NCBI RefSeq assembly: GCF_018612875.1
Contig: NZ_JAGGRI010000045.1
Coordinates: 1 to 64,000, forward strand
Direction of reading: 5' to 3'
DNA length: 64,000 bases
Source: Lysobacter sp. ISL-50
Lineage (GTDB): Bacteria > Pseudomonadota > Gammaproteobacteria > Xanthomonadales > Xanthomonadaceae
Shown piece after piece: positions 48,985 through 64,000 of this stretch (its first letter is position 1; each line of letters opens with the position of its first letter). The translations under genes and the position numbers were made by a program. The notes below the pieces were generated by a model, which was given only the letters and a program-made list of their open reading frames with translations, searched no databases and was not told the DNA's origin.

Positions 48985-49001
48985 TTGGCACGGGTCATGC
49001 G
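48985..49001 (+). promoter_or_regulatory. Sigma-54 promoter of pilA1
   Basis: TTGGCACGGGTCATGCG has the -24 GG (48987-48988) and -12 GC (48999-49000) exactly ten bases apart. It lies 97 bases before the pilA1 ATG and just downstream of pilSR. This is the expected RpoN/PilR-dependent pilin promoter. Confidence 0.85.
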
Positions 49002-49097: not shown

Positions 49098-49520
49098 ATG
49101 AAAAAGCAGAAAGGCTTCACCCTCATCGAACTGATGATCGTCATCGCTATCCTGGGCATCCTGATCGCCATCGCTCTGCCGGCGTACCAGGACTACACCG
49201 TCCGCGCCAAGAACGCTGAGTGCCTGAATATCGCCGCCGCAGCCAAGCTGGCCGTGTCGGAAACCGCTCAGGATCGTGGGAACTTAAACAAAATCACCGC
49301 TCAGTCGATCACCGGTTATAAGTTCGAGCCAAGCAAGTACTGCAAGGACGTGAAGATTGTCGCTGACGGCATCATCCAGACCGAAGCGCAAGACACCGGC
49401 GCCACCAAGGAAGCCAAGTTCCAATTGGAGCCGACCTACACTAGCGGCCGCATCGATTGGGAATGCACCGAAACCAACGGCGCGAAGAAGTCGCAGCTTC
49501 CGGCCGAGTGCCGCAAGTAA
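49098..49520 (+). CDS. pilA: Type IV major pilin-like protein, copy 1
   Basis: A prepilin of 140 residues. The leader is MKKQKG; PilD should cleave after G6 and methylate F7. The conserved Glu at mature position 5 is in [20 protein letters not shown], which is the N-terminal assembly helix. The globular part has Cys pairs (AECLNI, KYCKD, WECTE, AECRK) suited to a disulfide-bonded D-region. It shares nearly all of its first 60 residues with copies 2 and 3. A CTAGGGGA ribosome site and a sigma-54 promoter precede it, and a strong terminator follows. Confidence 0.93.
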
Positions 49521-49602
49521 TCAGGCTCGCGGGATGCTAATTACGATCTCTATAGTCTGCTGAGCCTAAGCGCCGAATTGACGCACGCGCTCATCTGCAT
49601 CG

Positions 49603-49634
49603 AAAAAGCCGGCTCCAGGAGCCGGCTTTTTTTC
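49603..49634 (+). terminator. Intrinsic terminator of pilA1
   Basis: AAAAAGCCGGCTCC / GGAGCCGGCTTTTTTT with a short loop; ideal stem and U-tract, 83 bases after the pilA1 stop. Confidence 0.95.
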
Positions 49635-50311
49635 GTCGATACAATACCTGGGCCTTTAACCACGCTATCGATTCGGCCCGGCGGCGCTCGTACCCGGTGT
49701 TGACAGTCTTCATGCATCGCCGATAGCCGCTGACGCGCGCACGGCGACTGAGCGCGAGCTTCACTACGTCGCTGACTCCAGGCGGGCGCTTCCGACGTCC
49801 TCCAGCTCCAGCGGACTGCGCGACACGCGTTGCTCGCCCCGGCTTCCGCGCGGCCGAACTCCATAGCTGCCCCAGCCGCGTCACCGGGCGATCGCTTCGC
49901 CGTACGACTCTATATATGTCGCCGCTGGGCATCGATCGCTTGCCCAGTTGTAGCGCACGATCCCTTACTGATCTCGTGGCGCCACTGCCGACCACGCCCA
50001 AGAAGGCGGCGACCTATACCGCCCGCACCCCGGCAGTCGCCGCCACCGCTCGCTCAATGACGACACCCGATCGGCATCGGCCGCACCCGATCGCCAAACT
50101 CGGGCGACCTCATCGCGACAAACACCCCCAAAAATGCCTCGTCGAGATTTTGATGAATCTCACGCTTTCGCACTCGCGCCATTCAACCTGACACTTTTGG
50201 TCACCAGTCCCGCCCGCGGACTGCCGCTCAGCGTCACCCCACGCCCTCCCTAAAGGCCCGGATGCGTGACTGCATTTGCAGTTTCGCTCCCCCCTCCTGC
50301 GCGGCACATAC

Positions 50312-50328
50312 TTGGCACGTGTTGTGCG
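50312..50328 (+). promoter_or_regulatory. Sigma-54 promoter of pilA2
   Basis: TTGGCACGTGTTGTGCG has GG (50314-50315) and GC (50326-50327) separated by ten bases, the same form as the pilA1 promoter, 102 bases before the pilA2 ATG. Confidence 0.85.
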
Positions 50329-50429
50329 TACTTCTTACGTGCACGTGCAGCACGCACGGCATGCCGAAGGATCGAATTCCGATGCCTGTTGGCACGTGAA
50401 GCAACTCAATCACTCCTAGGGGATACATC

Positions 50430-50852
50430 ATGAAGAAGCAGCAAGGTTTCACCCTCATCGAACTGATGATCGTCATCGCGATCCTGGGCATCCTGATCGC
50501 CATCGCTCTGCCGGCGTACCAGGACTACACCGTCCGCACCAAGAACGCCGAGTGCCTGAACATCGCCGCCGCCGCCAAGCTGGCCGTGTCGGAAACCGCT
50601 CAGGACCGTGGCAGCCTGGCCGCGATCACCAACCAATCGATCACCGGCTACACGTTCACGTCCAGCGACTACTGCAAGACCGTCGCCATCGCCGCGAACG
50701 GCATCATCAATACCGAAGCTTCCGGCACCGGCGGCACCCCGCTCGCCAAGTTCAAGCTTGAGCCGAACTTCAGCGCTGGCCGCATCGACTGGAAGTGCAC
50801 CGACACCGCTGGCGCCAAGAAGTCGCAGCTGCCGGCCGAGTGCCGCAGCTAA
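50430..50852 (+). CDS. pilA: Type IV major pilin-like protein, copy 2
   Basis: A 140-residue prepilin with leader MKKQQG and the same assembly helix as copy 1. From residue 66 on it diverges ([20 protein letters not shown]), with more Ser/Thr than copy 1. It ends PAECRS, so the last residue is Ser, whereas copies 1 and 3 end in Lys and His. The shared leader CTCCTAGGGGA before both ATGs points to a recent duplication including the ribosome site. It has its own sigma-54 promoter and terminator and is an equal candidate for the main pilus subunit. Confidence 0.93.
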
Positions 50853-50882
50853 TAGCTTCGCGTAACGGCTAGTGCAGTAACA

Positions 50883-50910
50883 GAAACCCCGGTCCGCCGG
50901 GGTTTCTTCT
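50883..50910 (+). terminator. Intrinsic terminator of pilA2
   Basis: GAAACCCCGG / CCGGGGTTTC with a TCCG loop, then TTCT; 30 bases past the pilA2 stop. Confidence 0.85.
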
Positions 50911-51014
50911 AAGTCGGCGGCGCGCCCCGTCGCCGAGCTTTTATCGGATCACCCCCCTGACGATCCATTCGATGTAACGTTCCGAATACTGCTAGGTTCT
51001 ACAGGGGCACCATC

Positions 51015-51431
51015 ATGAAATCGCAATCGGGCTTTACCCTAATCGAGCTGATGATTGTGATCGCGATCCTCGGCTTGCTGATCGCAATCGCGCTGCCGGC
51101 ATATCAGGACTACACCATTCGCACTAAAAATGCGGAATGTTTGTCCGTATCGGCAGGCGCGAAACTTTCCGTAACAGAAGCGGCCCAGGACTTGGGCCAG
51201 CTCGCGCTCGTTACATCTTCCAGTACGGCTTATAAGTTCGCCCCGAGCAAGTACTGCGCCTCGGTGGATATCGGGCAAGGAGGGGTGATCACCATGCTCA
51301 CCAGGGATACCGGCGGAGAAATCGCCAAGATCCAGCTCGACCCCGGAGAGGGGCAGGGCCGCGTGGAATGGGGATGCAAAGAACTCAATGGAATTCCGAA
51401 GAGCCAGCTTCCTGCCGAATGCAGGCACTGA
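51015..51431 (+). CDS. Type IV pilin-like protein, copy 3
   Basis: A 138-residue prepilin with leader MKSQSG and helix [20 protein letters not shown]. It is the most divergent of the three: codon use is less GC-biased near the start, and the globular domain has fewer Ser/Thr, more Gly ([22 protein letters not shown]) and ends PAECRH. The four Cys are kept. It lacks a visible sigma-54 promoter, lies behind the pilA2 terminator, and has an AGGGGC ribosome site. It may be a minor or silent pilin. Confidence 0.88.
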
Positions 51432-51460
51432 CTCCGAAGCAAGGCTCATGGATGCTATAA

Positions 51461-51489
51461 GAACCCCGGCCCGCCGGGGTTCTTCTTTT
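51461..51489 (+). terminator. Intrinsic terminator of pilA3
   Basis: GAACCCCGG / CCGGGGTTC with a CCCG loop followed by TTCTTTTC, 30 bases after the pilA3 stop. It resembles the pilA2 terminator, suggesting it was copied with the gene. Confidence 0.85.
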
Positions 51490-51526
51490 CTGCAGCGGCC
51501 GCTTCCTCCCTTCAGTACGGCAGATC

Positions 51527-53470
51527 ATGTCCCGCCTCAGCTCACGACTGTTCTTCTACGCCGCCGCGCTCGTCACCATTGGATTGTATTGGTCCGGCCT
51601 CAAGGGGCCGTTTATCCTCGACGACGCCTTCAACATCGATCCCTTGCAGAACTGGATCAGCGGCCAGGCCAGTGTGGCCGAAGTCATCTTCGGCAACGCC
51701 TCCGGGGTGCTGGGCCGCCCGGTCTCGATGGCTACGCTGTGGCTGAGCGCGGCCACCGGCGGCATCCATCCTTTTCCGTTCAAATTCGGCAATCTGCTGA
51801 TTCACCTGGTGTGCGGCGCCCTCGCCTGGCAGGTCGTCCGGCGCATGCTGGCGCGGGATCGGCTGCTCGCGCCGCATGCGGAAAAGATCGGGGTCCTGGT
51901 CGCGGCGATCTGGCTGATCCATCCGATAAACGTGAGCACCGTGCTCTACGCCGTGCAACGCATGGCACAACTGAGCAGCCTGTTTACGCTGGTCGCGATC
52001 TGGATTTACCTATCGGGCCGGACAAAACTCGAAGCAGGCGAACTGCGCGGGGGAGCCGCGCGTTTGTTCCTGGCGTTCCCGGTCGCGCTCTTGCTCGGCG
52101 TGTTGAGTAAAGAAAACGCCGCGGTAGCGCCCGCGCTATGCCTCATCCTGGAAATCGCGTACTTCCGCAGTTGGCGCCAGAGTTCAAGAGTCCTGACGGG
52201 TTTTTATCTCGCGTTCCTGGCCCTGCCCGCGCTCGCTGCATTCGCCATGATTCTGCGCTCGCCCGACCACTTCCTGGTCGGATACGCTTCGCGCGATTTC
52301 ACCTTGTTCGAGCGGCTGCTGAGCCAACCGCGAGCCCTCATGGAGTACATCGGCCTGATCGCGTGGCCGCGAGGCGGACTCATGGGCGTCTTCGTGGACG
52401 ACTTCAGAGCCTCGCATGGCCTGTGGTCGCCGCCCTCGACTTTCTTCGCATTGCTCGCCTTGCTTTCGATCAGCATCGCGGCAATCGCCCTGCGCCGGCG
52501 CGCGCCCAGCGTGTTCGCCGGCTGGTTCTTCTACCTGGTCGCGCAAGGCGTGGAGTCCAGCATTCTGCCGCTTGAACTGTATTTCGAGCACCGCAACTAC
52601 CTGCCCAGCATCGGCCTGTTGGTGGCGCTGGTCGGGCTGCGCGATCTGCTGCCTGAATCCTGGTCGTTCGCTCGCCCATCGAAAACGCGAGCGCTCTATC
52701 TGGCATTCGCGCTGGCCGCGGCGGCCCTGTCCTGGATCACCTGGAACCAAGTCCAGGTATGGCGCAGCGAAGCGAGCCTGATAGAGCAGACGCTGGCGAA
52801 CCGTCCCGGCTCGACCCGGGCGATGATCGTCAAGGCAGCGGTCGCCCTGCGCGAAAGCAGATATCAGGAAGCGCGCGCGACGACGATGAAAATCGCGCTG
52901 GACAAGGATCAGCCGGCGCGCCTGCAAGGCTACTTCAGCACCATCATCGTGGATTGCTGGTGGTCCACGGGCGGCGAGGCCAAGTACCTGCAAGAAGGTG
53001 CGACCAGTTTCAAGCCGCCGATCCACCTGTCCGATGCACTCACCTCCAACAACTTGCTCGATGCCATCGATCAAAAGCGCTGCGGGCCTGAAATCACCTA
53101 TGCCCGCGTAGCCGATGCCTTGGACAAGATCCTTGCCGCGGCGCCGACTCAACCGGAAACCAGCCGCGCCAAATGGATGCTCAGGACGATGGCCGCGACC
53201 GCGAACCTGCGCGCCGACCGCTGGCAGCAAGCTCAAGCGCACGCGGAAAAGGCATGGAACCCTTCCGCCGATCCCGCCGTCGGCGGCCTGCTCGCGCGCA
53301 TTTACATCCACAACGGACGAAAAGCCGAAGCGCAGCGCACGTTGGACGAAGTGACTGCGCGAGTCAGGAGCTTCGAACGGATCGCAAACAGTGAACTGAG
53401 CGGGCTGCGCGAGGCGATCCAAAAAATGCCGTCCCCAGGCACCACCGACAAGGCGACGAAGACACCATGA
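51527..53470 (+). CDS. GT-C fold membrane glycosyltransferase, candidate pilin glycosyltransferase
   Basis: A polytopic protein of 647 residues: about 11 helices in the first 410 residues and a soluble, helical TPR-like C-terminal 220 residues. The first periplasmic loop has LDDAFNID, a GT-C acidic motif. Also seen are GNLLIHLVCGAL, AIWLIHPINVSTVLYAVQRMA and LYFEHRNYLPSIGLLVAL, the pattern of TMTC/PglL-like lipid-donor glycosyltransferases. It lies 96 bases after pilA3, as TfpO or TfpW genes follow pilA in Pseudomonas. Transfer of a lipid-linked sugar to pilin in the periplasm is inferred from fold and position, not shown. Confidence 0.7.
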   Translation: MSRLSSRLFFYAAALVTIGLYWSGLKGPFILDDAFNIDPLQNWISGQASVAEVIFGNASGVLGRPVSMATLWLSAATGGIHPFPFKFGNLLIHLVCGALAWQVVRRMLARDRLLAPHAEKIGVLVAAIWLIHPINVSTVLYAVQRMAQLSSLFTLVAIWIYLSGRTKLEAGELRGGAARLFLAFPVALLLGVLSKENAAVAPALCLILEIAYFRSWRQSSRVLTGFYLAFLALPALAAFAMILRSPDHFLVGYASRDFTLFERLLSQPRALMEYIGLIAWPRGGLMGVFVDDFRASHGLWSPPSTFFALLALLSISIAAIALRRRAPSVFAGWFFYLVAQGVESSILPLELYFEHRNYLPSIGLLVALVGLRDLLPESWSFARPSKTRALYLAFALAAAALSWITWNQVQVWRSEASLIEQTLANRPGSTRAMIVKAAVALRESRYQEARATTMKIALDKDQPARLQGYFSTIIVDCWWSTGGEAKYLQEGATSFKPPIHLSDALTSNNLLDAIDQKRCGPEITYARVADALDKILAAAPTQPETSRAKWMLRTMAATANLRADRWQQAQAHAEKAWNPSADPAVGGLLARIYIHNGRKAEAQRTLDEVTARVRSFERIANSELSGLREAIQKMPSPGTTDKATKTP

Positions 53471-53479
53471 CCCGGCTGA

Positions 53480-53513
53480 AAAAGCGCGACGGCAAGAGGA
53501 TGCCGTCGCGCTT
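53480..53513 (+). terminator. Probable terminator after the GT-C gene
   Basis: A 12-bp stem AAGCGCGACGGC / GCCGTCGCGCTT with an 8-base loop lies 10 bases after the stop. It has no clear T-run, so it may attenuate rather than stop transcription. Confidence 0.55.
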
Positions 53514-53596
53514 CGGGAGCTGACTCAAACCGCCCAAAACGACAGCGGGCACCGGGCCATACACAAGCCATTGCCAGCTCCAGCGCATATCGAACG

Positions 53597-55645
53597 ATGC
53601 CGACCCATGATGATCCGGCCGTAAAACGTTCGACAGGCCTACTATCAACCGCAAGCAGCGCTAATACCTATCTCGACATGCAGACACCATCCGGCCCGAG
53701 CACGCCAGCAAACAAGAACGCCGTATCCAAGGTCACCTGGTCCGGCTTGACGCTCTTCGTCAGCACGTTGCTGGTGTTCTTGCTCGGATTCCGTTTCGAT
53801 GGCGGTCCGGCCAGCTACGACATCGACCCATCCTGGGCCGCGGTCGTCACGTGGGGAGCCGAACACGGCGCGCATTGGGGACGCGATATCGTTTTCACCT
53901 ATGGCCCGCTTGGACTGCTGAGCCCTCAATTCAGTTACACCGCATCGATGCTGCTCGCCGCTGCGGTTGGCCAAGTAGCGTTCTCCGCGCTTTACGCGGT
54001 GCTTTTTTTGATCGCGTGCTCAGCGCTCGCTTTCTCTTCGCGCCTGACGACATTGCTGATCGTGGTTTGGTTTGGAACCGTATGGGCTGGCGACGTCCTG
54101 TGGCTCACGATCTATCCTGTCGCCCTGATGGCGCTCTGGCGAATCCGGGAGAGCGAAGGAAAGTATCTGGACCTTCTGATTGCAATCGCGGCGGGAGTCG
54201 CCTGCGCCGTGCCATGGCTGATCAAGTTCAGCCTATTTCCACTTTGGATCGTCTGGCTGATCTGTGCGCCCATCGCGCTGGCGCGATACGGTCGACAGGG
54301 CCTGCTGGCCTCGGGCTCAAGCGTCGTCGCCGCATTAGTGTTGTGGTGCGTCACCGGGCAGGATTTCGCCGATATCGGTCTTCATATCAACAAAGGCTTT
54401 CAGGTCGCGATCGGCTACAGCCACGCGATGCAGCGCCCCGGCCCCGAACGGACCGACACGATCGGATTCATCGCGCTGGCGCTCGCCGTCGCGGCGATGG
54501 CCTCGGTTTTCCTGCGATCGCGCTTGCGCGTCACCGAGCGCGCCGCATTGATCGCGCTCGCGCTGGCCACGACGGCCTTGTCGTTCAAGGCCGCATTCAC
54601 GAGAGTCGATGCCGTCCATTTGCTGATTTTCTTCCCGACCGCCGGAGCCGTTGTCGCTCTGGCCGGCACGTTGGCCGAGAGCGTCTCGATCCGTCGGCTG
54701 ACCGCATTCGCAGCGGTGGCCTGCGCGGCGATCGCCTTCGCATTACCTTCCATACCTGCGGATCGAAAACTGTTTCTAGCCACAGGCTTCCCCGCCCTCG
54801 ATACATCGACACAGCGCGCACTCGATCTGATCCTGTTCCGCGCGCGGGCCGAACAGCTCAACAACGCCGATCGCACCGTGCGAGCCAACGCGTCGATGCC
54901 TCAAACCAGGCAACTGGTCGGCCGTGACCCGATAGACATCATCTCGGTTGGGCAGGGCGTCCTTTTTCTCAACCAACTCAATTATCGGCCGCGCCCGATC
55001 TTCCAGGGCTACTCGGCCTATACGCCCGAGCTGGCGGCGATGAATCGCGATTTCATCGTTTCATCGCGCGGCCCGCGGTGGGTCATGTTGGACCTCAGGG
55101 CAATCGACGGTCGCCTGCCGATGAGCGAGGACCCGCTGGCGATGCTGCAGGTCGTCCAGACCTACCGTCCGCGCCTGAGCGAACGCGGCCTGCTGCTCAT
55201 GCAGCGCAATGCCAGTGCCCGAACGACCACGAAGCCGCTGGCAGAAGCGCAAGGCCGCCTCGATGAGTTCCTCGTGGTTCCTTCCAGGCCCGGTCAGGCG
55301 CTCGCTTTAAGCATCGACATCGAACCCACCGCCTGGGGCCGGGCCGCCGGGACGCTGCACAGATCGCCTCGCTTGTACATCGACCTGGAACTCGGCGATG
55401 GAACGCAACGCAGCTATCGCATCGTTCCGGGCGCGGCGCGAGCGGGATTCCTGCTGTCGCCGCTTGTCGAAAATACTCAGTCGCTCTGGAGCTGGCTCGC
55501 CACCGACAAAAGCGAGCGCGTAACCCGGTTGCGCCTGCGCGGTGAATCCTGGCTTGGGCATCCCGGGTTCCAGCAAGACTATCGGCTGAGCTACAGCGAA
55601 CTGACGGTACCGTCGTCGCCTCATGATCCGGCGCCGGCGCCCTAG
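53597..55645 (+). CDS. Large polytopic membrane protein, GT-C-like, function unknown
   Basis: A 682-residue integral membrane protein with about 11 helices between residues 45 and 390 and a periplasmic-looking C-terminal region of 280 residues. The first loop has SYDIDPSWAAVVTWGAEHGAHWGRDIVFTYGPLG-type content with Asp-rich ends, reminiscent of GT-C enzymes, but I cannot name the family. Position after the pilins and the first GT-C gene suggests a role in pilin or surface glycan modification. The start is uncertain: an ATG at 53678 (MQTPSGPS) would remove 27 residues, and neither has a strong ribosome site. Confidence 0.6.
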   Translation: MPTHDDPAVKRSTGLLSTASSANTYLDMQTPSGPSTPANKNAVSKVTWSGLTLFVSTLLVFLLGFRFDGGPASYDIDPSWAAVVTWGAEHGAHWGRDIVFTYGPLGLLSPQFSYTASMLLAAAVGQVAFSALYAVLFLIACSALAFSSRLTTLLIVVWFGTVWAGDVLWLTIYPVALMALWRIRESEGKYLDLLIAIAAGVACAVPWLIKFSLFPLWIVWLICAPIALARYGRQGLLASGSSVVAALVLWCVTGQDFADIGLHINKGFQVAIGYSHAMQRPGPERTDTIGFIALALAVAAMASVFLRSRLRVTERAALIALALATTALSFKAAFTRVDAVHLLIFFPTAGAVVALAGTLAESVSIRRLTAFAAVACAAIAFALPSIPADRKLFLATGFPALDTSTQRALDLILFRARAEQLNNADRTVRANASMPQTRQLVGRDPIDIISVGQGVLFLNQLNYRPRPIFQGYSAYTPELAAMNRDFIVSSRGPRWVMLDLRAIDGRLPMSEDPLAMLQVVQTYRPRLSERGLLLMQRNASARTTTKPLAEAQGRLDEFLVVPSRPGQALALSIDIEPTAWGRAAGTLHRSPRLYIDLELGDGTQRSYRIVPGAARAGFLLSPLVENTQSLWSWLATDKSERVTRLRLRGESWLGHPGFQQDYRLSYSELTVPSSPHDPAPAP

Positions 55646-55703
55646 CGGAACTGGGATGCCCGAGGAACGGCCAAGGCTTTCACGAACGCCGCCAACGCCG
55701 GGC

Positions 55704-56111
55704 TTATTCGCTCCTGCCCGGCGCGAAAGAAAGGTACTTGTGTCCGAAGTAGCTCGTGACGACGGGAACCGCGATGCCGATGGCGTGCGCGATCGTTTCC
55801 GTGTGAGCGTGAACCCCGACCGCCGGCAGCACCACGCGAACCAGTAGCAAACTGATCGCGATCGTCTGCAGCACCGCGGCGATGTTGACCGCGACGAACC
55901 AGCCGATCTGACGATGCAGCCGCGCCGCGCCGTCGGCCTGGAAAACGAAGACCTTGTTGAGGATGAACGCCGTCGCCATGCCCAGGCAATACGCGACCGT
56001 TATGGCGGGGACATAGTCCATCCAAGTGCTCAGCGCGATCCGCGAGCAGAAGTTGACGGCGGCCGCGGCCCCGCCCGCCAGAACAAAAAGAATGAAGCGG
56101 CGCGAAATCAA
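55704..56111 (-). CDS. GtrA family membrane protein
   Basis: A small protein of 135 residues with four membrane helices of the GtrA family. Members are thought to flip or help move polyprenyl-phosphate-linked sugars. The opening RRFILFVLAGGAAAAVNF and the later VAYCLGMATAFILNKVFVF are family hallmarks. In mycobacteria a GtrA protein (Rv3789) is encoded beside dprE1/dprE2, so its place at the end of this operon supports handling of a decaprenyl-type arabinose donor. It starts 10 bases after the FAD-protein gene. Confidence 0.88.
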   Translation of the reverse strand: MISRRFILFVLAGGAAAAVNFCSRIALSTWMDYVPAITVAYCLGMATAFILNKVFVFQADGAARLHRQIGWFVAVNIAAVLQTIAISLLLVRVVLPAVGVHAHTETIAHAIGIAVPVVTSYFGHKYLSFAPGRSE

Positions 56112-56121
56112 GGTGCTTGCC

Positions 56122-57429
56122 TCATCCGACGGCGGCGACGAGGGCGAGTGTGCGTCCCACCACGATGCTCTCGTTGATCGATCGATCCTCGGGGTAGTAA
56201 TACGAAGTATCTGCCATGTAAAAACCTTCCACCGGCGTCTTCATCGGCGGCAGCATGGCCTGGAAGCCCGGCGGGCAAATGGTCTGGGCGAAGTCGTAGC
56301 GATGGCAATAACGGGCGACAATCCAGTCGGGCCGGAACGCGGGATTGATCTTCGACAGATAGCTCACGACTTCGTCGATCAACTGCTCGTTGCTCCGGGA
56401 CCACTTGGGATGGGTCTTGGGCATGTAGAACGGCGCGTACACGATGCGTTCGCCCTCGCCCGTGCCGGGATTGAGGTTGGAGTACTCGATGACACCGGGG
56501 ATTTCGATATCCGGATCGCTGATGTTCATCCAGAAGTTCGCGCTCAGCGCATGGCGCAACTTGAGAATGACGCAGGCCACCGGGATGTTCTCGATCCGGC
56601 GTATGCGATCGGCGAATTCGCGCGGCAGCGCCGGAACCATGTCCGGCACGTACTGGATCGGAGCGGTCGACAGCACGGCGTCGCAGGCGCGGTCGTCGCC
56701 GGCGACGCGCACGCCAGTGACCCGGCTTCGATCGACGTTGACTTGATCGATGCCCTGCTTGAGATGGATCTTGCCGCCGCGTTCGAGGATGAAGCGCTCC
56801 ATCGCTTCCAGCACGGTCTCCGAGCCGCCTTCGATATAACCCAGGCTCTCGCTCAGCAGACTGCGCCGGGACAGGGCGATGCGCTTGATCCGGGTGCCGA
56901 TCCACGAGGCCGACAGGTTGTCGGTGTATTCGAAGAATTTGAGATGGAAGGTGCGGCGCCAAAGCACGTCGTAACCCCGCTCGCCCAGCCAACGACGCAG
57001 CCATGCGGTAGCGTTGACTCGATCCAGCGCGGTCCAGTCCTTGACGCCCTTGGTCACCATCACATGCAGGGCGTAACGAAACTTGCTGATGAGCCCGAGC
57101 TTCGGGAACGCCAGCAACGCGAAGGGCGTGCCCCACTTGTACAGCTTGCCGTCGTAGTAGTAACCCATCTTGGTGTCGGTCCACTTTAGCCGGTTCGACA
57201 AACCCAGCGAATCCAGCAGTTCGAACAAGGCGTGGTCGGTCTTGCAGATGAAGTGATAGTAGCGTTCGATCTTGAGGCCATCGAAATCGAAGCTGGCCGA
57301 CATGCCGCCGACGCGATCGTCGCGCTCGTAGATATCGACCTGGTGACCCTGCTTGAGCAGTTCCATGGCCGCCATCAATCCCATCGGGCCAGAGCCGACG
57401 ATCGCGAAACGTTTCGGTACGGTGGTCAT
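56122..57429 (-). CDS. FAD-dependent oxidoreductase/mutase-like protein
   Basis: A 435-residue flavoprotein. The dinucleotide motif FAIVGSGPMGLMAAMELLKQGHQVDIYERDDRVGG opens the chain (motif GxGxxG at residues 12-17). The middle part (YYHFICKTDHALFELLDSLGL, KFFEYTDNLSASWIG) and the end GFYMADTSYYYPEDRSINESIV match the amine-oxidase/protoporphyrinogen-oxidase/UDP-galactopyranose-mutase superfamily. A role as sugar mutase or desaturase in the same glycan pathway is inferred from context. It is followed closely by the gtrA-type gene. Confidence 0.8.
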   Translation of the reverse strand: MTTVPKRFAIVGSGPMGLMAAMELLKQGHQVDIYERDDRVGGMSASFDFDGLKIERYYHFICKTDHALFELLDSLGLSNRLKWTDTKMGYYYDGKLYKWGTPFALLAFPKLGLISKFRYALHVMVTKGVKDWTALDRVNATAWLRRWLGERGYDVLWRRTFHLKFFEYTDNLSASWIGTRIKRIALSRRSLLSESLGYIEGGSETVLEAMERFILERGGKIHLKQGIDQVNVDRSRVTGVRVAGDDRACDAVLSTAPIQYVPDMVPALPREFADRIRRIENIPVACVILKLRHALSANFWMNISDPDIEIPGVIEYSNLNPGTGEGERIVYAPFYMPKTHPKWSRSNEQLIDEVVSYLSKINPAFRPDWIVARYCHRYDFAQTICPPGFQAMLPPMKTPVEGFYMADTSYYYPEDRSINESIVVGRTLALVAAVG

Positions 57430-57495
57430 CGAGGCTCGGCGTATTCGGGGTTAGAGTGATCGGCCCTCGGGTGCGAACCGAAGGGAACGGACGCT

Positions 57496-58449
57496 TTAGC
57501 GCTTGAGAACGATTTTAGAGTAGGTCGGATCGCAGTAGCTCTCGCGTACCGCGTCGTCGAAGGCGTGCTGGGCGACTCCGAACACCGCCTGAGTGTCCAC
57601 GCCCTTGAAGTCGTCGCCGGCCGACAGAGCTTTGAGCTGATCCGCGGTAAACGGCGGTTTGCGACTGAACACGGCATAGGTCCGCAGCAGGAAAGCGAAC
57701 CAGGCCATGGGGATATGCACGATCCAGGTGCGCAAGCCCTTGGCGGCCTTGATGGTCTTGATAATGTCGATATAGGTGATGCGAGTGTCGCCGACGATGT
57801 CGTAGATCGCGCCTTGCGGCTCGCGCTCGATGCACTTCACGATGCAACGGCAGAAGTCGCGTTCGTACAGCGGTTGGCGCATGAACTTGCCGTCGCCCGG
57901 GATCGGGAATATCGGCGTACGCGCCATGAAGCGCGACAGCCAGCCCAGGTGCTTGGGATCGAACCAGCCGAACATCAAGGTTGGACGCAGTACGCAGTGG
58001 CGCAAGCCGCTCTGCACGACCATGACCTCCTGCTGCTTCTTCGTGTTGGTGTAATCGTCGTTGGCGACCGAATTAACCACCGATGAGCTTATGTGCACCA
58101 GATATGGCATCCGCAGGCGCTTGCACGCCTCCAGCACGATACGGGTGGCGTCGATGTTATTGCGGATGAACAACTCGCCGTGCTTGCCGGTGATCTGCGC
58201 ATGCAGTTGGATCAGGCAGCGCGCGTCGCGCAGAGCCGGTTCCCACTTCGCCGTTTCGGCGGGGACCGCCAGATCGGCGTGAATGGCTTCGACGTCGGGA
58301 TGCAGCGACTTGAGGATGTCGAGGTTGTAGGCGTGTTTGTCGATCGCGACCAGCCGGGTATAGCCCTGCGCCTTCAATTCGACGATCAGATTCTGGCCGA
58401 CGAGTCCGGCGGCGCCGGTCAGTACGATCTTGGCGTGCTTGTCGTTCAT
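57496..58449 (-). CDS. NAD-dependent epimerase/dehydratase family protein
   Basis: An extended SDR of 317 residues. The NAD site is IVLTGAAGLVGQNLIVEL, and LIQLHAQITG and LVHISSSVVNSV are the following strands. The usual catalytic YxxxK is represented by YTNTKKQQEVMV. A hydrophobic segment near residue 255 (IPMAWFAFLLRTYAVF) suggests membrane association, as in polyprenyl-linked sugar or sterol-type reductases. The substrate is unknown. It starts 11 bases after the dprE2-like gene. Confidence 0.82.
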   Translation of the reverse strand: MNDKHAKIVLTGAAGLVGQNLIVELKAQGYTRLVAIDKHAYNLDILKSLHPDVEAIHADLAVPAETAKWEPALRDARCLIQLHAQITGKHGELFIRNNIDATRIVLEACKRLRMPYLVHISSSVVNSVANDDYTNTKKQQEVMVVQSGLRHCVLRPTLMFGWFDPKHLGWLSRFMARTPIFPIPGDGKFMRQPLYERDFCRCIVKCIEREPQGAIYDIVGDTRITYIDIIKTIKAAKGLRTWIVHIPMAWFAFLLRTYAVFSRKPPFTADQLKALSAGDDFKGVDTQAVFGVAQHAFDDAVRESYCDPTYSKIVLKR

Positions 58450-58460
58450 CGAAGTCCGGC

Positions 58461-59198
58461 TTACAGCTTGATACGGCGAAAGACGAACTCGGGGATATTC
58501 TTGATCACCTGCATGATTCCCCACCAGAACCATGGCAGGTAGACGACGCCACGACGCTTGTCGATCGCATCGACGATGCCGCGCGCGATGCGATCGGGTG
58601 TGGCCCACAACGCGCCTTTCTTGAACGACCGGGTCATCGGCGTATCGACGAAGCCCGGCTTGATCGTCAGCACATTGATCCCATCAGCGTTGAGACGTTG
58701 GCGCAGGCCGCTGAAGAAGGTACTGACCGCGGCTTTGGCGCTGCCGTACAGATAGTTGCTGGCGCGGCCGCGATCGCCGGCGACGGAAGAGATCGCCGCC
58801 AGGGTGGCACCGGACTTGAGTCGCGGCGCGATCGCCGTGGCCAACGCGATAATGGACAAGCCATTGGTGGAAAACTCGCGCAGCGCCAATTCCGCCGACG
58901 CCTCGCAAGCCGCCTGGTCGGGCAAGGTACCGTGCGCGATCAGAACCAGATCGATCTGACCAAACTCGGCCCAGGCCGCGTCGAGCATGTCCTGATGCCG
59001 CTCGTAAGCATTGACGTCGAGCGCGCTCACCGCGGTCTTGCCGGCGCCGCGCACGGCCAGATCGGCGGCGATCGCGCTCAGTCGGTCCAGGTCGCGGCCG
59101 ACCAGATACAGCGCAGCGCCGCGGGCGGCGTAAACACGGGCGGTGGCCTCGGCGATGGCCGATGTGGCGCCGATGATCAGGACTGCGTACATGCTCAC
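58461..59198 (-). CDS. DprE2-like decaprenylphosphoryl-2-keto-erythropentose reductase
   Basis: A classical SDR of 245 residues. The cofactor motif is LIIGATSAIAEATARVYAARG, catalytic residues are in SSVAGDRGRASNYLYGSAKAAV (Ser and Tyr-x-x-x-Lys), and IKPGFVDTPMT follows. The C-terminus has a hydrophobic stretch (GVVYLPWFWWGIMQVI), also typical of DprE2. With DprE1 it would reduce the 2-keto intermediate to give polyprenylphosphoryl-D-arabinose. The GTG at 59198 overlaps the stop of the DprE1-like gene (GTGA); an ATG at 59192 is the alternative. The order E1-E2 matches mycobacteria. Confidence 0.85.
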   Translation of the reverse strand: MSMYAVLIIGATSAIAEATARVYAARGAALYLVGRDLDRLSAIAADLAVRGAGKTAVSALDVNAYERHQDMLDAAWAEFGQIDLVLIAHGTLPDQAACEASAELALREFSTNGLSIIALATAIAPRLKSGATLAAISSVAGDRGRASNYLYGSAKAAVSTFFSGLRQRLNADGINVLTIKPGFVDTPMTRSFKKGALWATPDRIARGIVDAIDKRRGVVYLPWFWWGIMQVIKNIPEFVFRRIKL

Positions 59199-60493
59199 TC
59201 CATCACCCGGCGCCAAAAACCGGACGAGAACTTCGGATCGATATGGGTCTGAAAGCGCCGCCATTGCGGGTACGCGCTACGGAACAGGCGGCCGGACATG
59301 CGTGCATCCTTGGCCGGATACACCGCGCCGCCGGCCTCGGCGACGATGGCGTCGAGGCGATCGAGCAACGCGAAGGTCGCCGGCCCGCCATTAGGAAAAT
59401 CCAACGCCAGGGTCGTGCCGGGACGAGGAAACGAGAGCAGGCCGAGCGAGGGAATCTCGCCGAATTCTTTCAGCACCGCCAGGAACGAACCGCTGCCGCC
59501 GCGCGAGATTTCACCGAGCAGCGCGGCGATGCCGTCGCGCGCGCTGGCCGGCGGCAACACGCATTGGTGCTGGAGGAAACCGCGCGGGCCGTACATGCGG
59601 TTCCAGTCGCCGATGCCGTCGAGCGGATAGAAGTAATTCGCGTAATGAACGCTGTCGCGTCGGCGCGGCGCACGCTGGCGGTGGTAGTACAACGCATTGA
59701 GCGGACGCAGGCTGAGCCGGTTGACCAACGACAGGGGCGGTGTGAACGGCATCGCCATACGTGACTGTGACGCGGGCGAATTCCGCTCGGCGTCGCCGGG
59801 CGCATGATCGGCGCGCAGGAAATGGCCGCGCCCCAGCGAGCGGCCGCGAGCCATGCAGTCTATCCAGGCGACGGTGTATTCGTGGCTGCGCGCCGATTGC
59901 GCCGACAAAGCGAAAAAGTCGTCGAGTTGGCCGAAGCGTATCGACTCGACCTCCATCCACGGACCGGGCACGCGCCGCAGTTGCAATTCCGCCCAGACGA
60001 TCGCGCCGGTCAACCCCAGGCCGCCGACGCTGGCCGCGAATAAATCGTCCCCGGGCACGCACACCTGGCGGCTGCCGTCGCTGCGCAGCAATTCGAAGCA
60101 GCGCAGGTGATGGCCGAAATTGCCCGCGCCGTGATGGTTCTTGCCGTGCACGTCGTTGGCGATCGCGCCGCCCACGGTGACGTAACGGGTGCCCGGCGTC
60201 ACCGGCAAGAACCAGCCCTGCGGCAAGACGATGGCGATGATGTCCGCCAGAGTCACTCCGGCCTCGCAACGCAACACACCGCTGGCGGGATCGAACGCGA
60301 TGAAACGGTCGAGGCCGCGCAGGTGCAGCAAGGTGCCGTCCGGGTTAAGGCAACTGTCGCCGTAGCTGCGTCCGTTGCCGTAGGGCAGAACACTGCCATC
60401 GACCTGCGGCAATGGCTGGCGGCGATCGGTCAGCGGCACGATCCGCTGGCGCGCCTGCGGATAACGTCCCCAGGACTGGCCCGGCCGGGTCAT
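59195..60493 (-). CDS. DprE1-like decaprenylphosphoryl-ribose 2'-oxidase
   Basis: An FAD-linked oxidase of the VAO/PCMH family, 432 residues. The N-terminal FAD domain has LPYGNGRSYGDSCLN and TPGTRYVTVGGAIANDVHGKNHH, the same as in DprE1, including the His that in some relatives binds FAD. The C-terminal substrate domain has FLAVLKEFGEIPSLGLLSFPRPG and YPAKDARMSG with the catalytic Lys. At the place of Mtb Cys387 (in NICVDFP) the sequence is TLALDFP, with Ala363. The ATG at 60493 overlaps the stop of the HAD-UbiA gene (ATGA). Confidence 0.87.
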   Translation of the reverse strand: MTRPGQSWGRYPQARQRIVPLTDRRQPLPQVDGSVLPYGNGRSYGDSCLNPDGTLLHLRGLDRFIAFDPASGVLRCEAGVTLADIIAIVLPQGWFLPVTPGTRYVTVGGAIANDVHGKNHHGAGNFGHHLRCFELLRSDGSRQVCVPGDDLFAASVGGLGLTGAIVWAELQLRRVPGPWMEVESIRFGQLDDFFALSAQSARSHEYTVAWIDCMARGRSLGRGHFLRADHAPGDAERNSPASQSRMAMPFTPPLSLVNRLSLRPLNALYYHRQRAPRRRDSVHYANYFYPLDGIGDWNRMYGPRGFLQHQCVLPPASARDGIAALLGEISRGGSGSFLAVLKEFGEIPSLGLLSFPRPGTTLALDFPNGGPATFALLDRLDAIVAEAGGAVYPAKDARMSGRLFRSAYPQWRRFQTHIDPKFSSGFWRRVME

Positions 60494-61932
60494 CCGATGG
60501 CGCCCAGGGCCAGCAATCCGCACAGGACGATGACGATCTGGCTGGCGCGGTCGGTGGCCGCGAACACCACCGGATCGTCGTCCATGCTGCCGCGATGGGA
60601 GGTCATCCACAGATGGCTGATCCAGTACAGCAGCAACGGGCAGATCAGCCACAGCACCTGCGGACGCGCGTACAGCGCCAGACTTTCCGGGCTGTTGATG
60701 TAGAGCGCGAACACCAGCACGGCCAGATAGCCGGCGCTGCCGCCCAGGGACTGGATCAGCGGCAGATCTTCGACCGCATAACCTCGGCCGCTGGCCTTGC
60801 GCTGGCCGTTGCCGAGAATCGCCGACAACTCGGTGTAACGCTTGAGCATCGCCAGACTGAGGAAGATGAACATCGAGAACGCGAGCAGCCAGAACGACAG
60901 CGTGGCGCCGATCGCGACCGCGCCGCCGATGATGCGCAAGGTGTACAAGCTCGCCAGCACGATCACATCGACCATGACGATGCGCTTGAGCCGCAGCGAA
61001 TAAGCCAGGGTCGTCGCGTAGTAACCCATCAGCACCAATGCGAACCAGGGGTTGGCGATGAGCGCCAGGGTGAAACCGGCAAGCGCCAGCAGCGGCGCCA
61101 CGAACAGGCCGTGCAGCAACGGCAGGCCCCCGGCGGCGAACGGCCGCAGCCGCTTGCGCGGATGCTGCCGGTCTGCGGGCAAGTCGAGCAGATCGTTAAG
61201 GACGTAGACGCCCGAAGCGCTCAGATTGAAAGCGATGAAGGCGAGCACCGAGACGATCACGGCCTCGACATCGAAGAACCGGTGCGAGGCCAGCAGCGGC
61301 AGGAATACCAGAAGGTTCTTCAACCACTGGTGGATACGCAGCGCCTTGATCCAGGTCTTGATCCCGCCGCCCTGCGCCGGCAGTTGGCCGGCGACATCGA
61401 CGACCTGCGCCGCGCGCGCGGCCAAGCCAGGCGAGCCATTGACGACCCAGGCATTGCGCGCACGCGCCCATACCGGCAGATCGATGGCGGCGTTGCCCAT
61501 GTAGTCGAAACCGCGCTCACCGAAACGCTCGGCCAGCGCTCGCGCTTTGTTCGCGCCCGACAGATTGACGCCGTCGTCGCTGGCCAGCACCAGATCGAAT
61601 ACGCCCAGATGGGTCGCCACTTGTTGCGCGAACTTGGTGTGGCTCGCGGTACACAATACGCGCGGCCGTGCCTGGGTCTCGCGCAATGCGTCCACCACGC
61701 GTTCGTCGTACGGCAGGGTAGCCACGTCCAGCTCGACTCGCGAGGCGATTTCGTGCTTGAGCGCGGCTTTTCCCCGCAGCAGCCAGAACGGCAGCAGGAA
61801 CAGCAGCAGCGGACGCCGGCTGAGCATGGCCAGCACCGACTCGTACAGCAGATCGGATTTCAGCAAGGTGCCGTCGAGATCGACACACAGGGCGACGGTG
61901 CTCCGCTCGGTTTGGGGCGTATGTTCCGTCAC
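60490..61932 (-). CDS. HAD phosphatase-UbiA fusion (5-phosphoribosyl polyprenyl-phosphate synthase type)
   Basis: A 480-residue two-domain protein. Residues 1-190 are a HAD phosphatase (ALCVDLDGTLLKSD, then CTASHTKFAQQV and NAAIDLPVWARA). Residues 195-480 are a UbiA membrane prenyltransferase with about eight helices and the motif VYVLNDLLDLPADRQHPRKRLRPFAAG, which matches the DPPR synthase Rv3806c type and binds phosphoribosyl pyrophosphate. The fusion can supply both the transfer of 5-phosphoribose to a polyprenyl phosphate and removal of the 5-phosphate. It starts with GTG at 61932 because no ATG is nearby. It is first of three overlapping genes. Confidence 0.87.
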   Translation of the reverse strand: MTEHTPQTERSTVALCVDLDGTLLKSDLLYESVLAMLSRRPLLLFLLPFWLLRGKAALKHEIASRVELDVATLPYDERVVDALRETQARPRVLCTASHTKFAQQVATHLGVFDLVLASDDGVNLSGANKARALAERFGERGFDYMGNAAIDLPVWARARNAWVVNGSPGLAARAAQVVDVAGQLPAQGGGIKTWIKALRIHQWLKNLLVFLPLLASHRFFDVEAVIVSVLAFIAFNLSASGVYVLNDLLDLPADRQHPRKRLRPFAAGGLPLLHGLFVAPLLALAGFTLALIANPWFALVLMGYYATTLAYSLRLKRIVMVDVIVLASLYTLRIIGGAVAIGATLSFWLLAFSMFIFLSLAMLKRYTELSAILGNGQRKASGRGYAVEDLPLIQSLGGSAGYLAVLVFALYINSPESLALYARPQVLWLICPLLLYWISHLWMTSHRGSMDDDPVVFAATDRASQIVIVLCGLLALGAIG

Positions 61933-62039
61933 CGCTCGCGGTCCTGGGTGGTTGAGGTGAGTCGAACGCGAACAAGCGCGATCGCCGCGGCCGTGCCCTT
62001 CGAAATAGAATCAAAGCCAGATCGGCAACCGGACATGGG

Positions 62040-63206
62040 TTACTCCCGCTGCAGGATCGAACGCCATGCGCAAACCACCCGCGCCCCCGCCAGATGCTCG
62101 GTGAAATAACCGCGCGCCTGTCTGGCCAGAGAATACCTGCGACTCGAATCCTCGGCGAGCGACGCCAGGGCCCGTGCCAGATCGCTCGCATCGGCGGTCT
62201 CGACCGCCAACAGCGGCGGAGCCGGAACCGCGTGCGGCAGGGACATTTTGCCCTGGCTGACGATGGCCCGTCCGGCGGCCAGATACATGTAGAGCTTGAA
62301 CGGCAACACCCGCGCGGCCTTGCCTTCGCCGCCGAATACGCCCAGGCAGATATCGGCCTCGGCGATCTCCGCCGCCAGCGTCTCCAGCGATTGCCATTGA
62401 CGGACCCAGCTCGCTTGAGCGGCATCGTGTTCGGCGATGAACTCGCTCAACGCCGGCCCCAGCTGTCCGTCGCCGATGAAACGGAAGTGGAAACGTCCGG
62501 CATGCCGCTCATCGTTCAACAACAGCTGTATCGCCGACAGGATCGTCGGCACGCCGTGCAACGGAATCAGCGTACCCACGAACAGGACACGCAAGGGCTC
62601 GTGCGAGTCTTCCGCGCCGGACGGCATGGCCAGAAACGGCGCTTCGTCGATCGCCAGGGGCAAGGATCGCACTTGCCGCGGCTGCAGACCGAAGTCGTCG
62701 ATCATGCTGAGCCGGTTGGCTTCGGTATCGACCAGGACCATGGACGCGGCGCGCAAGGCGCGGGCTTCGAAGCGCTTGATCCATCGCGAGGCCACGGAGC
62801 CGCCGCTGCTGCGGTCGCGATCGCGGAACATCGAGTCCCATACCGAGATATACGCATCGACGATGCAATAAGGGCGGATGCCGCGCGGCAGCCACGACGC
62901 CAGCCACATGAAGAAGACGCTGGGATAAGGCACGTAGACCGGGACGCTTTCGCCGCCGCGCGCGGCCCACAACACTCGCAATAAACTGCGCAGATTGCCC
63001 AAGCCCAGGCCCGCCAACGCACGCAATTGCTTCAAGGGCGAAAGATGCCGCAGCGTCCACAAATGCAGATGCGGCGGCAATTCCCGGCCGAGATCGCGAA
63101 TGCGCACTACTTCGTGCGCCCGCAGCAATTTCAGAGTCTGCTCGGCGTTGGGATAACCCGACCCGGATGTGCGCAGCCCGGCGACAATCAAGGTCTGCGC
63201 GATCAT
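62040..63206 (-). CDS. GT4-type glycosyltransferase
   Basis: A cytoplasmic GT-B fold glycosyltransferase of 388 residues. The N-terminal half has SGSGYPNAEQTLKLL and CIVDAYISVWDS. The C-terminal Rossmann half has LRVLFVGTLIPLHGVPTILSAI, FRFIGDGQLGPAL and LPFKLYMYLAAGRAIV, the nucleotide-sugar site of family GT4. The donor and acceptor are unknown. The ATG at 63206 overlaps the stop of the preceding membrane protein (ATGA). A 107-base gap separates it from the HAD-UbiA gene. Confidence 0.85.
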   Translation of the reverse strand: MIAQTLIVAGLRTSGSGYPNAEQTLKLLRAHEVVRIRDLGRELPPHLHLWTLRHLSPLKQLRALAGLGLGNLRSLLRVLWAARGGESVPVYVPYPSVFFMWLASWLPRGIRPYCIVDAYISVWDSMFRDRDRSSGGSVASRWIKRFEARALRAASMVLVDTEANRLSMIDDFGLQPRQVRSLPLAIDEAPFLAMPSGAEDSHEPLRVLFVGTLIPLHGVPTILSAIQLLLNDERHAGRFHFRFIGDGQLGPALSEFIAEHDAAQASWVRQWQSLETLAAEIAEADICLGVFGGEGKAARVLPFKLYMYLAAGRAIVSQGKMSLPHAVPAPPLLAVETADASDLARALASLAEDSSRRYSLARQARGYFTEHLAGARVVCAWRSILQRE

Positions 63207-64000
63207 CGCCCTGCCCCGCTACGACGCAGCCAGGCATGTCCGGCCAAGGTGCCGACGCACTCGCTGGCCAGGATCAAAGCGCGTGCGGCGACCACTCCGG
63301 CCAACACGGTGCTCGCCTGGGCCGTGCTGGACATCGAAGCGATCACCGATTCGCGCACGCCCAAGCCACCCGGCACCAGAATCGCAAGCACCCCGGCAAC
63401 CGTGCCGGCGAACAGCGCCTGGATGAAACCCAGGGTGTCGGCGGGCTCGACCAGCAACAGATAGGCGCCCGCATAAGGCAGCATCGCCAGGCCATAGCCG
63501 AATAACGACGCCGCCAGCGGCACGACTTTCACGGTGCTGCGCTTACCGATCAGCAAGGCCGCCGCGATCAGAACGACGACGGCCAAAAGCGCGGCCGCGC
63601 CGATCCACAAGGCGCAGTCCGGCCGATAGATCAACGCGGACGCGGCAAGCGCGATCGCGGCGCAGATCGACAACGAGAACCCCTGTTCCAACACACCGAC
63701 GACCACTGTCGTTCGCGACGAAACGCCGAACCCGGACAGCATCAATCCGCGGCCGAGAACATGGCCGATGCCGACCGGCACATACTTGGCGAGCAAGGTC
63801 GCCAGCCATACCGCGCTCAACCGCGGGCCGGTCACGCCGACGCCGAAGGCTCGGTTCGCCGATGCGAACGCGGCCGCGTTGAAAACCAGCGACAACGCGA
63901 ACAGCGCGAACGCCAGCAACAAGCGACTTGGGTCGATGGCGGCGATCGCTTTCAGAAACTGCGGCCCCTGCACGCCCAGATAGCGGGCCGCGAACACCAG
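63203..64000 (-). CDS. Flippase-like integral membrane protein (LPG synthase TM/UPF0104 type), partial
   Basis: The gene runs off the right edge; at least 265 residues are visible and the true start is missing. There are about seven helices. KYVPVGIGHVLGRGLMLSGFG near the start, and GVLAILVPGGLGVRESVI near the end, are hallmarks of the lysylphosphatidylglycerol-synthase transmembrane family (AglD-type), many members of which move or modify polyprenyl-linked glycans. A link to lipid-linked sugar translocation is inferred from the operon. Confidence 0.8.
   Translation of the reverse strand: MVFAARYLGVQGPQFLKAIAAIDPSRLLLAFALFALSLVFNAAAFASANRAFGVGVTGPRLSAVWLATLLAKYVPVGIGHVLGRGLMLSGFGVSSRTTVVVGVLEQGFSLSICAAIALAASALIYRPDCALWIGAAALLAVVVLIAAALLIGKRSTVKVVPLAASLFGYGLAMLPYAGAYLLLVEPADTLGFIQALFAGTVAGVLAILVPGGLGVRESVIASMSSTAQASTVLAGVVAARALILASECVGTLAGHAWLRRSGAGR

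Follow-up and report, generated by a model that had tools for sequence, protein, structure and literature searches.

A candidate pentofuranose glycosylation system in a variable slot of a Lysobacter type IV pilus locus

Type IV pilus genes and a candidate operon for a lipid-linked pentose lie side by side near the end of a 64,000-nucleotide stretch of Lysobacter sp. ISL-50 (assembly GCF_018612875.1, contig NZ_JAGGRI010000045.1, positions 1 to 64,000; hereafter the window). The genome measures 5.9 Mb and is labelled G000 in the comparisons below. On the plus strand, sucC is followed by pilS, pilR, three type IVa pilin genes and the genes of two polytopic membrane proteins, 51527-53470 (GTC) and 53597-55645 (GT53), which are called here 51527 and 53597. 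Convergent to these, a minus-strand run from 65638 to 55704 holds the genes of a GT2 glycosyltransferase, a methyltransferase (MTase), an LPG-TM protein, a GT4 glycosyltransferase, a HAD-UbiA fusion, DprE1-like and DprE2-like enzymes, an epimerase, an FAD protein and a GtrA protein. We propose that this arrangement is probably a three-component glycosylation system for a pentofuranose of the D-arabinofuranose (D-Araf) type that was captured in a variable slot of the pil locus, with 53597 as its transferase.

Layout of the pil locus and its candidate donor operon

A sequence-only reading of the window had placed the pilins, the 51527 membrane protein and a lipid-linked pentose operon next to one another. 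The gene order bears this out: donor genes and pilins are contiguous and have pil genes on both sides, with pilB closing the locus just beyond the window. Gene 53597 was absent from that account. Outside the window lie the rest of the LPG-TM gene, the methyltransferase and GT2 (to 65638), and then pilB, pilC and pilD-like and coaE-like genes. The assignments of pilB (NCBIfam TIGR02538, 834.8 bits) and sucC are above their NCBIfam cut-offs. PilC models matched pilC, and histidine-kinase and sigma-54-regulator models matched the candidate pilS and pilR, in each case below cut-off, so that these genes are named by eye; the coaE label and that of the pilD candidate, which had no NCBIfam match at 1e-30, were also assigned by eye. 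Genes of the operon are spaced by -11 to +11 bp, the exceptions being 107 bp between the GT4 and UbiA genes and 66 bp before the FAD gene (starts by eye).

The matches of the operon products are given in Table 1. Homology of the DprE1-like protein is clear, at 351.7 bits to NCBIfam NF053785 with its curated cut-off of 500, and the DprE2-like protein scores similarly short of NF053786. Because both fall below the NCBIfam equivalog cut-offs, they are treated as relatives and not as certified equivalogs. The UbiA domain of the fusion protein scores 110.6 bits to a solved decaprenyl-phosphate phosphoribosyltransferase and 72.5 bits to Pfam UbiA (cut-off 34.2), and the HAD domain scores 25.4 bits, slightly below the Pfam cut-off of 27. 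Together these domains make up the PRP-PPPRS component (HAD plus UbiA) of the three-component pentofuranose system. DprE1 and DprE2 homologues also belong to the Pseudomonas TfpW systems, and the set of UbiA, DprE1 and DprE2 homologues looked for in a TfpW-type system is present in the genome. The candidate flippase of the operon would be the GtrA-type protein, not a MATE protein. As a side observation, the window DprE1 has an alanine where the solved mycobacterial enzyme has the cysteine of gwnvCvDFP, which we take to be the cysteine targeted by benzothiazinones.

Table 1. Features of the pil locus and donor operon within and at the edge of the window
Feature	Position	Strand	Basis or remark
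Sigma-54-like site, ~100 bp 5' of pilA1	48986..49000	+	one mismatch to motif
pilA1, type IVa pilin	49098..49520	+	PF07963 4.6e-12, PF00114 1.4e-10
Sigma-54-like site, ~100 bp 5' of pilA2	50313..50327	+	aligned in four Lysobacter genomes
pilA2, type IVa pilin	50430..50852	+	N_methyl and PF00114 above Pfam cut-offs
pilA3, type IVa pilin	51015..51431	+	N_methyl and PF00114 above Pfam cut-offs
Terminator-like hairpin between pilA3 and 51527	51459..51484	+	11 pairs, T-rich tail
51527 (GTC), polytopic, C-terminal TPR, GT-C-like by eye	51527..53470	+	Pfam TPR; nine hydrophobic segments
53597 (GT53), polytopic, long C-terminal soluble part; proposed pentofuranosyltransferase for the donor of the facing operon	53597..55645	+	no Pfam or NCBIfam match
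GtrA-type small membrane protein, candidate donor flippase	55704..56111	-	PF04138 5.1e-18
FAD-dependent oxidoreductase, PRK07233 type	56122..57429	-	NF005560 533.6 bits (cut-off 252)
NAD-dependent epimerase/dehydratase	57496..58449	-	PF01370 3.3e-16; start by eye
DprE2-like short-chain dehydrogenase/reductase (SDR)	58461..59192	-	NF005489 322.7 bits (cut-off 267); NF053786 170.6 bits (cut-off 250)
DprE1-like oxidase	59195..60493	-	250.7 bits to solved mycobacterial DprE1
HAD phosphatase and UbiA phosphoribosyltransferase fusion	60490..61932	-	PRK08238 670.6 bits (cut-off 351)
GT4-type glycosyltransferase; also in the slot of sister genome G138, which lacks DprE1	62040..63206	-	profile match
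LPG-synthase-TM-type membrane protein, running on to 64063 outside the window	63203..64000	-	Pfam 27.3 bits, below cut-off of 33.4

Two membrane proteins and the donor genes

Both 51527 and 53597 are encoded 3' of pilA3 on the same strand, the position of a membrane gene behind pilA, and both are putative glycosyltransferases. Hydrophobic segments in 53597 number ten within residues 46-386 and zero in the last 296 residues, and its invariant residues include Asp77, Arg336, Asp338 and His341. The protein had no match in Pfam or NCBIfam at 0.001, none of its 11 aligned homologues did better than 0.07 in Pfam, and comparison of the 53597 and 51527 family profiles gave an hhalign probability of 1%. 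Further sequence searches of locus proteins against the PDB returned one chance match and TPR-type matches (among the best 60 of 88).

Among 299 genomes of the order, 53597 homologues (E<=0.001) were detected in 12 and DprE1 (E<=1e-60) in 50. All 12 carriers of 53597 were DprE1-positive (p=1.4e-10, Fisher), and in 11 of them the two genes lie within ~16 kb. Within the genus, 53597 was found in exactly the four of 20 genomes that are DprE1-positive (G000, G397, G400 and G405; p=2e-4), and in all four it is located in the pil locus. In G405, it stands between GTC genes and pilB, with the donor module ~108 kb off. Homologues also lie ~3-4 kb from pilA in G347 and G315, which both belong to a single genus of another family, and in or beside UbiA-DprE1-DprE2 genes in Erwinia sp. 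OLFS4, Methylovulum miyakonense, Chlorobiaceae and Paraburkholderia. Phylogeny does not enter the Fisher tests, and DprE1 was called at cut-offs chosen by us, 1e-100 for the family and 1e-60 for order and genus. A sample of the class gave 53597 matches at 1e-10 in six of 369 genomes, four of them new. Separately, at least two neighbouring 53597 copies were seen in planctomycete, Opitutaceae and Omnitrophica records (L162, L169, L193, L152), with no DprE1 match in the flanks covered.

The distribution of 51527 is different. It was matched in 76 of 149 family genomes (in G060 just so, at E=2.6e-4) and in 18 of the 20 genus genomes, while DprE1 is present in 15 (E<1e-100) and four of these, respectively. 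Across the family no association between the two was detected: 51527 is present in 7/15 DprE1-positive genomes and in 69/134 others (p=0.79). A very strong association links 51527 to the GT2 gene adjoining pilB, itself found in 73 of the 149 genomes. The two occur together in 71 (p=1e-33), 51527 being found without GT2 in five genomes (G015, G060, G062, G064 and G121) and GT2 without 51527 in two (G014 and G024). Many of the neighbourhoods read, though not all, show the order pilR-pilA-GTC-[variable]-GT2-pilB, several of them with two or three GTC copies. The proposal of the sequence-only reading that 51527 is a TfpW-like D-Araf enzyme is thus not supported, and 51527 was dropped as the donor-linked enzyme. 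The putative enzyme that tracks the donor genes is 53597, encoded next to 51527, rather than 51527 itself.

Variation of the slot and of pil linkage

The slot between the last pilin-side gene and pilB (53470-65650 in the window) has at least five configurations in the genus. The slots of 16 GTC-positive genomes were clustered, and those of G000 and G400 were read directly. An empty slot of ~140 bp is present in G015, G062, G401, G402 and G403. A UDP-GlcNAc-2-epimerase slot is seen in G116, G399 and G396, an FAD/acetyltransferase/GT4 slot in G090, G394, G395 and G398, and a short slot in G404. The GT4-LPG_TM-MTase type occurs in G138 without 53597, in G405 with 53597, and in G000, G397 and G400 with both 53597 and the donor module. 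These type labels have a Pfam basis for G116 and G090 only, with 4/10 proteins lacking a match.

The sequence-only reading had called for a survey of the pilA-GT-C-dprE order in other Lysobacter. The module is located in the pil locus in three of the 20 genus genomes, namely the window genome and also G397 and G400. Very probably G397 is the L. enzymogenes type strain, ATCC 29487, whose gene order is identical from sucC to GT2, with 61% identity to the window for GTC, 63% for 53597 and 74% for DprE1. Sister genome G138 has the order GTC-GT4-LPG_TM-MTase-GT2-pilB and carries neither DprE1 nor 53597. Comparison of L. enzymogenes with G138 (GTC 61% versus 45%) had first given the idea that the pilin/GTC type always travels with the pentose module. 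G400 and G404 rule this out. The flanks of G400 are near-identical to those of the window (pilR 99%, pilB 99%) and it retains the module and 53597; its two pilins are of another type and its two GTC genes are 43-44% identical. G404 has the closest GTC in the genus (64%) without module or 53597. Judging by these configurations, the two ends of the slot, pilin/GTC and pentose, are exchanged separately. The 53597 of G400 (L226:12179-14203) is itself a mosaic relative to the window, with residues 181-420 58-67% identical and residues 421-660 88-97% identical. This jump in identity suggests a recombination point within 53597.

Across 55 DprE1-positive genomes of the family and order, DprE1 is within ~12 kb of pilB in three: G000, G060 and G289. 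G060 has pilB, ~9 kb of other genes, DprE2, DprE1, UbiA, GT2 and others, two membrane proteins, pilA, pilC and pilD. In G289, coaE-pilD-pilC-pilB is followed by UbiA-GtrA-DprE1 at the contig end. In M. miyakonense (L202, L243), a run of UbiA-DprE1-DprE2-53597 homologue-epimerase-FAD-GtrA ends beside sucC-pilS-pilR; it was dropped as a further clear pil-linked case because the 20 kb of sequence read there yielded no pilin. In G073, pilB (L083:66-1792) matched as two overlapping pieces, reflecting a broken gene or a sequencing error.

All three pilins of the window carry the N-methyl motif and PF00114 of type IVa pilins, and pilA1 is 79% and 64% identical to the other two. The sites 5' of pilA1 and pilA2 resemble the sigma-54 motif. 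The window holds no excess of matches to this pattern (57 observed versus 82 expected), so that both sites are proposed from their position and the second also from its conservation. Between pilA1 and pilA2, a gap of 0.9 kb (49521-50429) is retained in three other Lysobacter genomes, with good conservation only in its 3' part (pilA2 promoter region and leader), and an Rfam search of the gap gave no match. Terminator-like sites numbered 19 in the scanned stretch versus 7.3 in shuffles. The hairpin between pilA3 and 51527 occupies the position at which an attenuator has been described behind pilins that carry accessory genes in other bacteria (PMC11841053).

A proposed mechanism and its relation to known systems

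The proposed pentofuranose system builds on what was observed: which genes are present, how they are ordered and spaced, the families to which they belong, and the joint occurrence of 53597 with donor genes and the pil locus. From this we infer the enzyme activities throughout, how 53597 folds and acts, what the acceptor is and which sugar is transferred. The HAD-UbiA protein would join undecaprenyl phosphate and phosphoribosyl pyrophosphate to undecaprenyl-phosphoryl-ribose-5-phosphate and remove the 5-phosphate, yielding undecaprenyl-phosphoryl-ribofuranose. DprE1 and DprE2 would invert C2 to give undecaprenyl-phosphoryl-D-arabinofuranose, which the epimerase and FAD protein may modify further and GtrA, perhaps with the LPG-TM protein, would flip. 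In the periplasm, the GT-C-like 53597 would transfer the pentose to the pilin directly or, more likely, to a glycan placed there by 51527. Because it is 53597 and not 51527 that accompanies the donor genes, we propose that 51527 puts the first sugar on the pilin and 53597 the pentose on top. Collectively, these results suggest that the pili of this Lysobacter may be decorated with an arabinose-type sugar.

Several observations weigh against this proposal. No 53597 match was found in 38 of the 50 DprE1-positive order genomes, and a survey of named genomes, which retained 79 loci from 200 relatives, showed DprE1 at 12 of the 53 loci of 53597 that exceed 15 kb, so that the 53597 family is not confined to DprE1 operons. 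The protein matches no glycosyltransferase model and no solved protein in Pfam and PDB sequence searches, and compared with the transferase ORF12 of Citrobacter youngae (membrane part to ~502 of 652) it has a shorter membrane part (to ~386) and a longer tail. DprE1 and pilB are at least 98 kb apart on the same contig in 19 of the 55 genomes and on different contigs in 33, some of them drafts in which adjacency across an assembly gap is possible; with DprE1 mostly not seen in the vicinity of pilB, the module probably often serves something else. The Methylovulum module, for which no pilin was found in the stretch read, belongs here as well.

We regard it as rather doubtful that the mechanism runs as proposed but with a sugar other than D-Araf (D-xylofuranose, D-lyxofuranose or a modified pentofuranose), an option suggested by the extra epimerase and FAD enzyme. 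Homologues of both enzymes are found in 27 of 33 DprE1 neighbourhoods of other genomes (10/14 and 17/19), an SDR epimerase has been linked to xylofuranose and DprE1/E2 to arabinofuranose, and the published systems without an assigned glycan include some from Xanthomonas that have several candidate epimerases or GT-Cs (PMC11127046). DprE1 and DprE2 alone, on the other hand, predict arabinofuranose, and in the pil-linked G060 stretch no epimerase or FAD homologue was found, a GalE-like protein (by eye) being present.

It seems unlikely that the operon and 53597 decorate another envelope glycan (lipopolysaccharide O-antigen or exopolysaccharide) and lie in the pil locus by chance or through a recombination hot spot. 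In favour of this, the slot is strongly variable within the genus, DprE1 in other genomes is mostly not seen close to pilB, and the GT136 system that has been characterised acts on O antigen (PMC11127046). This explanation has to contend with 53597 staying in the pil slot of G405 when the module is elsewhere, with its homologues beside pilA in G347 and G315, and with the recurrence of DprE1 near pilB in two other lineages (G060 and G289). Moreover, 51527 and 53597 are encoded one after the other on one strand, and the module genes run closely spaced in a single direction together with GT2-MTase-LPG_TM-GT4. Improbable too is the version of the sequence-only reading in which 51527, as the TfpW counterpart, attaches D-Araf straight to the pilin and 53597 is an elongating or accessory enzyme: 51527 does come directly after the pilins, with a terminator-like hairpin in between, as an accessory gene such as tfpW does, and GT-C donor promiscuity is possible, as ORF12 accepts ribofuranose and xylofuranose (PMC11127046), but 51527 is present irrespective of DprE1 and goes with the pilB-side GT2 (71/76), G400 keeps 53597 and the module despite its different GTC genes, and G404 has the closest GTC without DprE1 or 53597.

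Extending the proposed system to the family, we offer tentatively, as a possibility we would not yet bet on, that the Xanthomonadaceae pil locus works as a glycosylation island with plug-in parts. Priming of the pilin would fall to a constant GT-C with TPR and to the pilB-side GT2, and interchangeable cassettes between them would decide the decoration. The cassette here would be a pentofuranose module with its own undescribed GT-C arabinosyltransferase family (53597) capping the pilin glycan, and pilin, priming enzyme and capping sugar would be exchangeable separately. In Pseudomonas, glycans on the pilin are an aid in escaping pilus-specific phages (PMC11841053), and by analogy a swappable glycan slot would be a plausible arms-race site. 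If the proposed system is real, pilin arabinosylation would extend beyond Pseudomonas to a predatory biocontrol genus, and 53597 would point to an undescribed arabinosyltransferase family. L. enzymogenes ATCC 29487 would offer a cultivated, non-pathogenic species with donor synthesis, transfer and pilin acceptor in one contiguous, deletion-testable locus. Literature searches on pilin glycosylation in Lysobacter/Xanthomonas or on L. enzymogenes pilA gave, among the titles listed, none on a glycosylated Lysobacter pilin, most subscription papers being outside the search; a search on pilin arabinosylation in Lysobacter found no paper, and one on type IV pili with DprE1 gave no title on Lysobacter.

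The locus shares parts with several known systems. With the mycobacterial decaprenyl-phosphoryl-arabinose pathway (Rv3806c, DprE1, DprE2) it shares DprE1 and UbiA proteins homologous to the solved enzymes; in Lysobacter, the phosphatase is fused, and no solved protein matched 53597 in sequence. 51527 is a member of a Xanthomonadaceae family of TPR-bearing proteins beside pilA that occurs with or without pentose genes and for which no published function turned up in the literature searched. The GT136 system of C. youngae O1/O2 (PMC11127046) likewise has a HAD domain fused N-terminally to UbiA and a lipid-linked pentofuranose. Its ORF12 (GT136) is a GT-C of 11 helices whose C-terminal domain binds carbohydrate (PMC11127046), a plan that 53597 appears to share in outline only, as a large membrane domain followed by a C-terminal extramembrane domain. 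DprE1/E2 mark the arabinofuranose versions of this three-component pathway (PMC11127046) and are present in the Lysobacter operon. In C. youngae, the acceptor is an O polysaccharide and the flippase candidate a MATE protein, whereas the Lysobacter genes lie in a pil locus with GtrA as the candidate.

D-Araf on pilin is known in P. paraeruginosa, where pathway and pilin genes are apart (PMC12369383), and similar systems are mentioned for P. syringae (PMC11127046, PMC12369383). The TfpW system (PA7, Pa5196) and the Lysobacter locus have in common type IVa pilins, a membrane glycosyltransferase gene (putative in Lysobacter) behind the pilin and a polyprenyl-phosphate pentose pathway with a UbiA-type enzyme. 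The phosphatase is separate in PA7 and fused to UbiA in Lysobacter. The donor-linked enzyme in Lysobacter would be the second membrane protein, 53597, and not the family-wide gene directly behind the pilins. Finally, the PA7 pathway (PSPA7_6245-6251, island RGP80) is apart from pilA-tfpW-tfpX (PSPA7_5161-5159), whereas in Lysobacter the pathway lies inside the pil locus.

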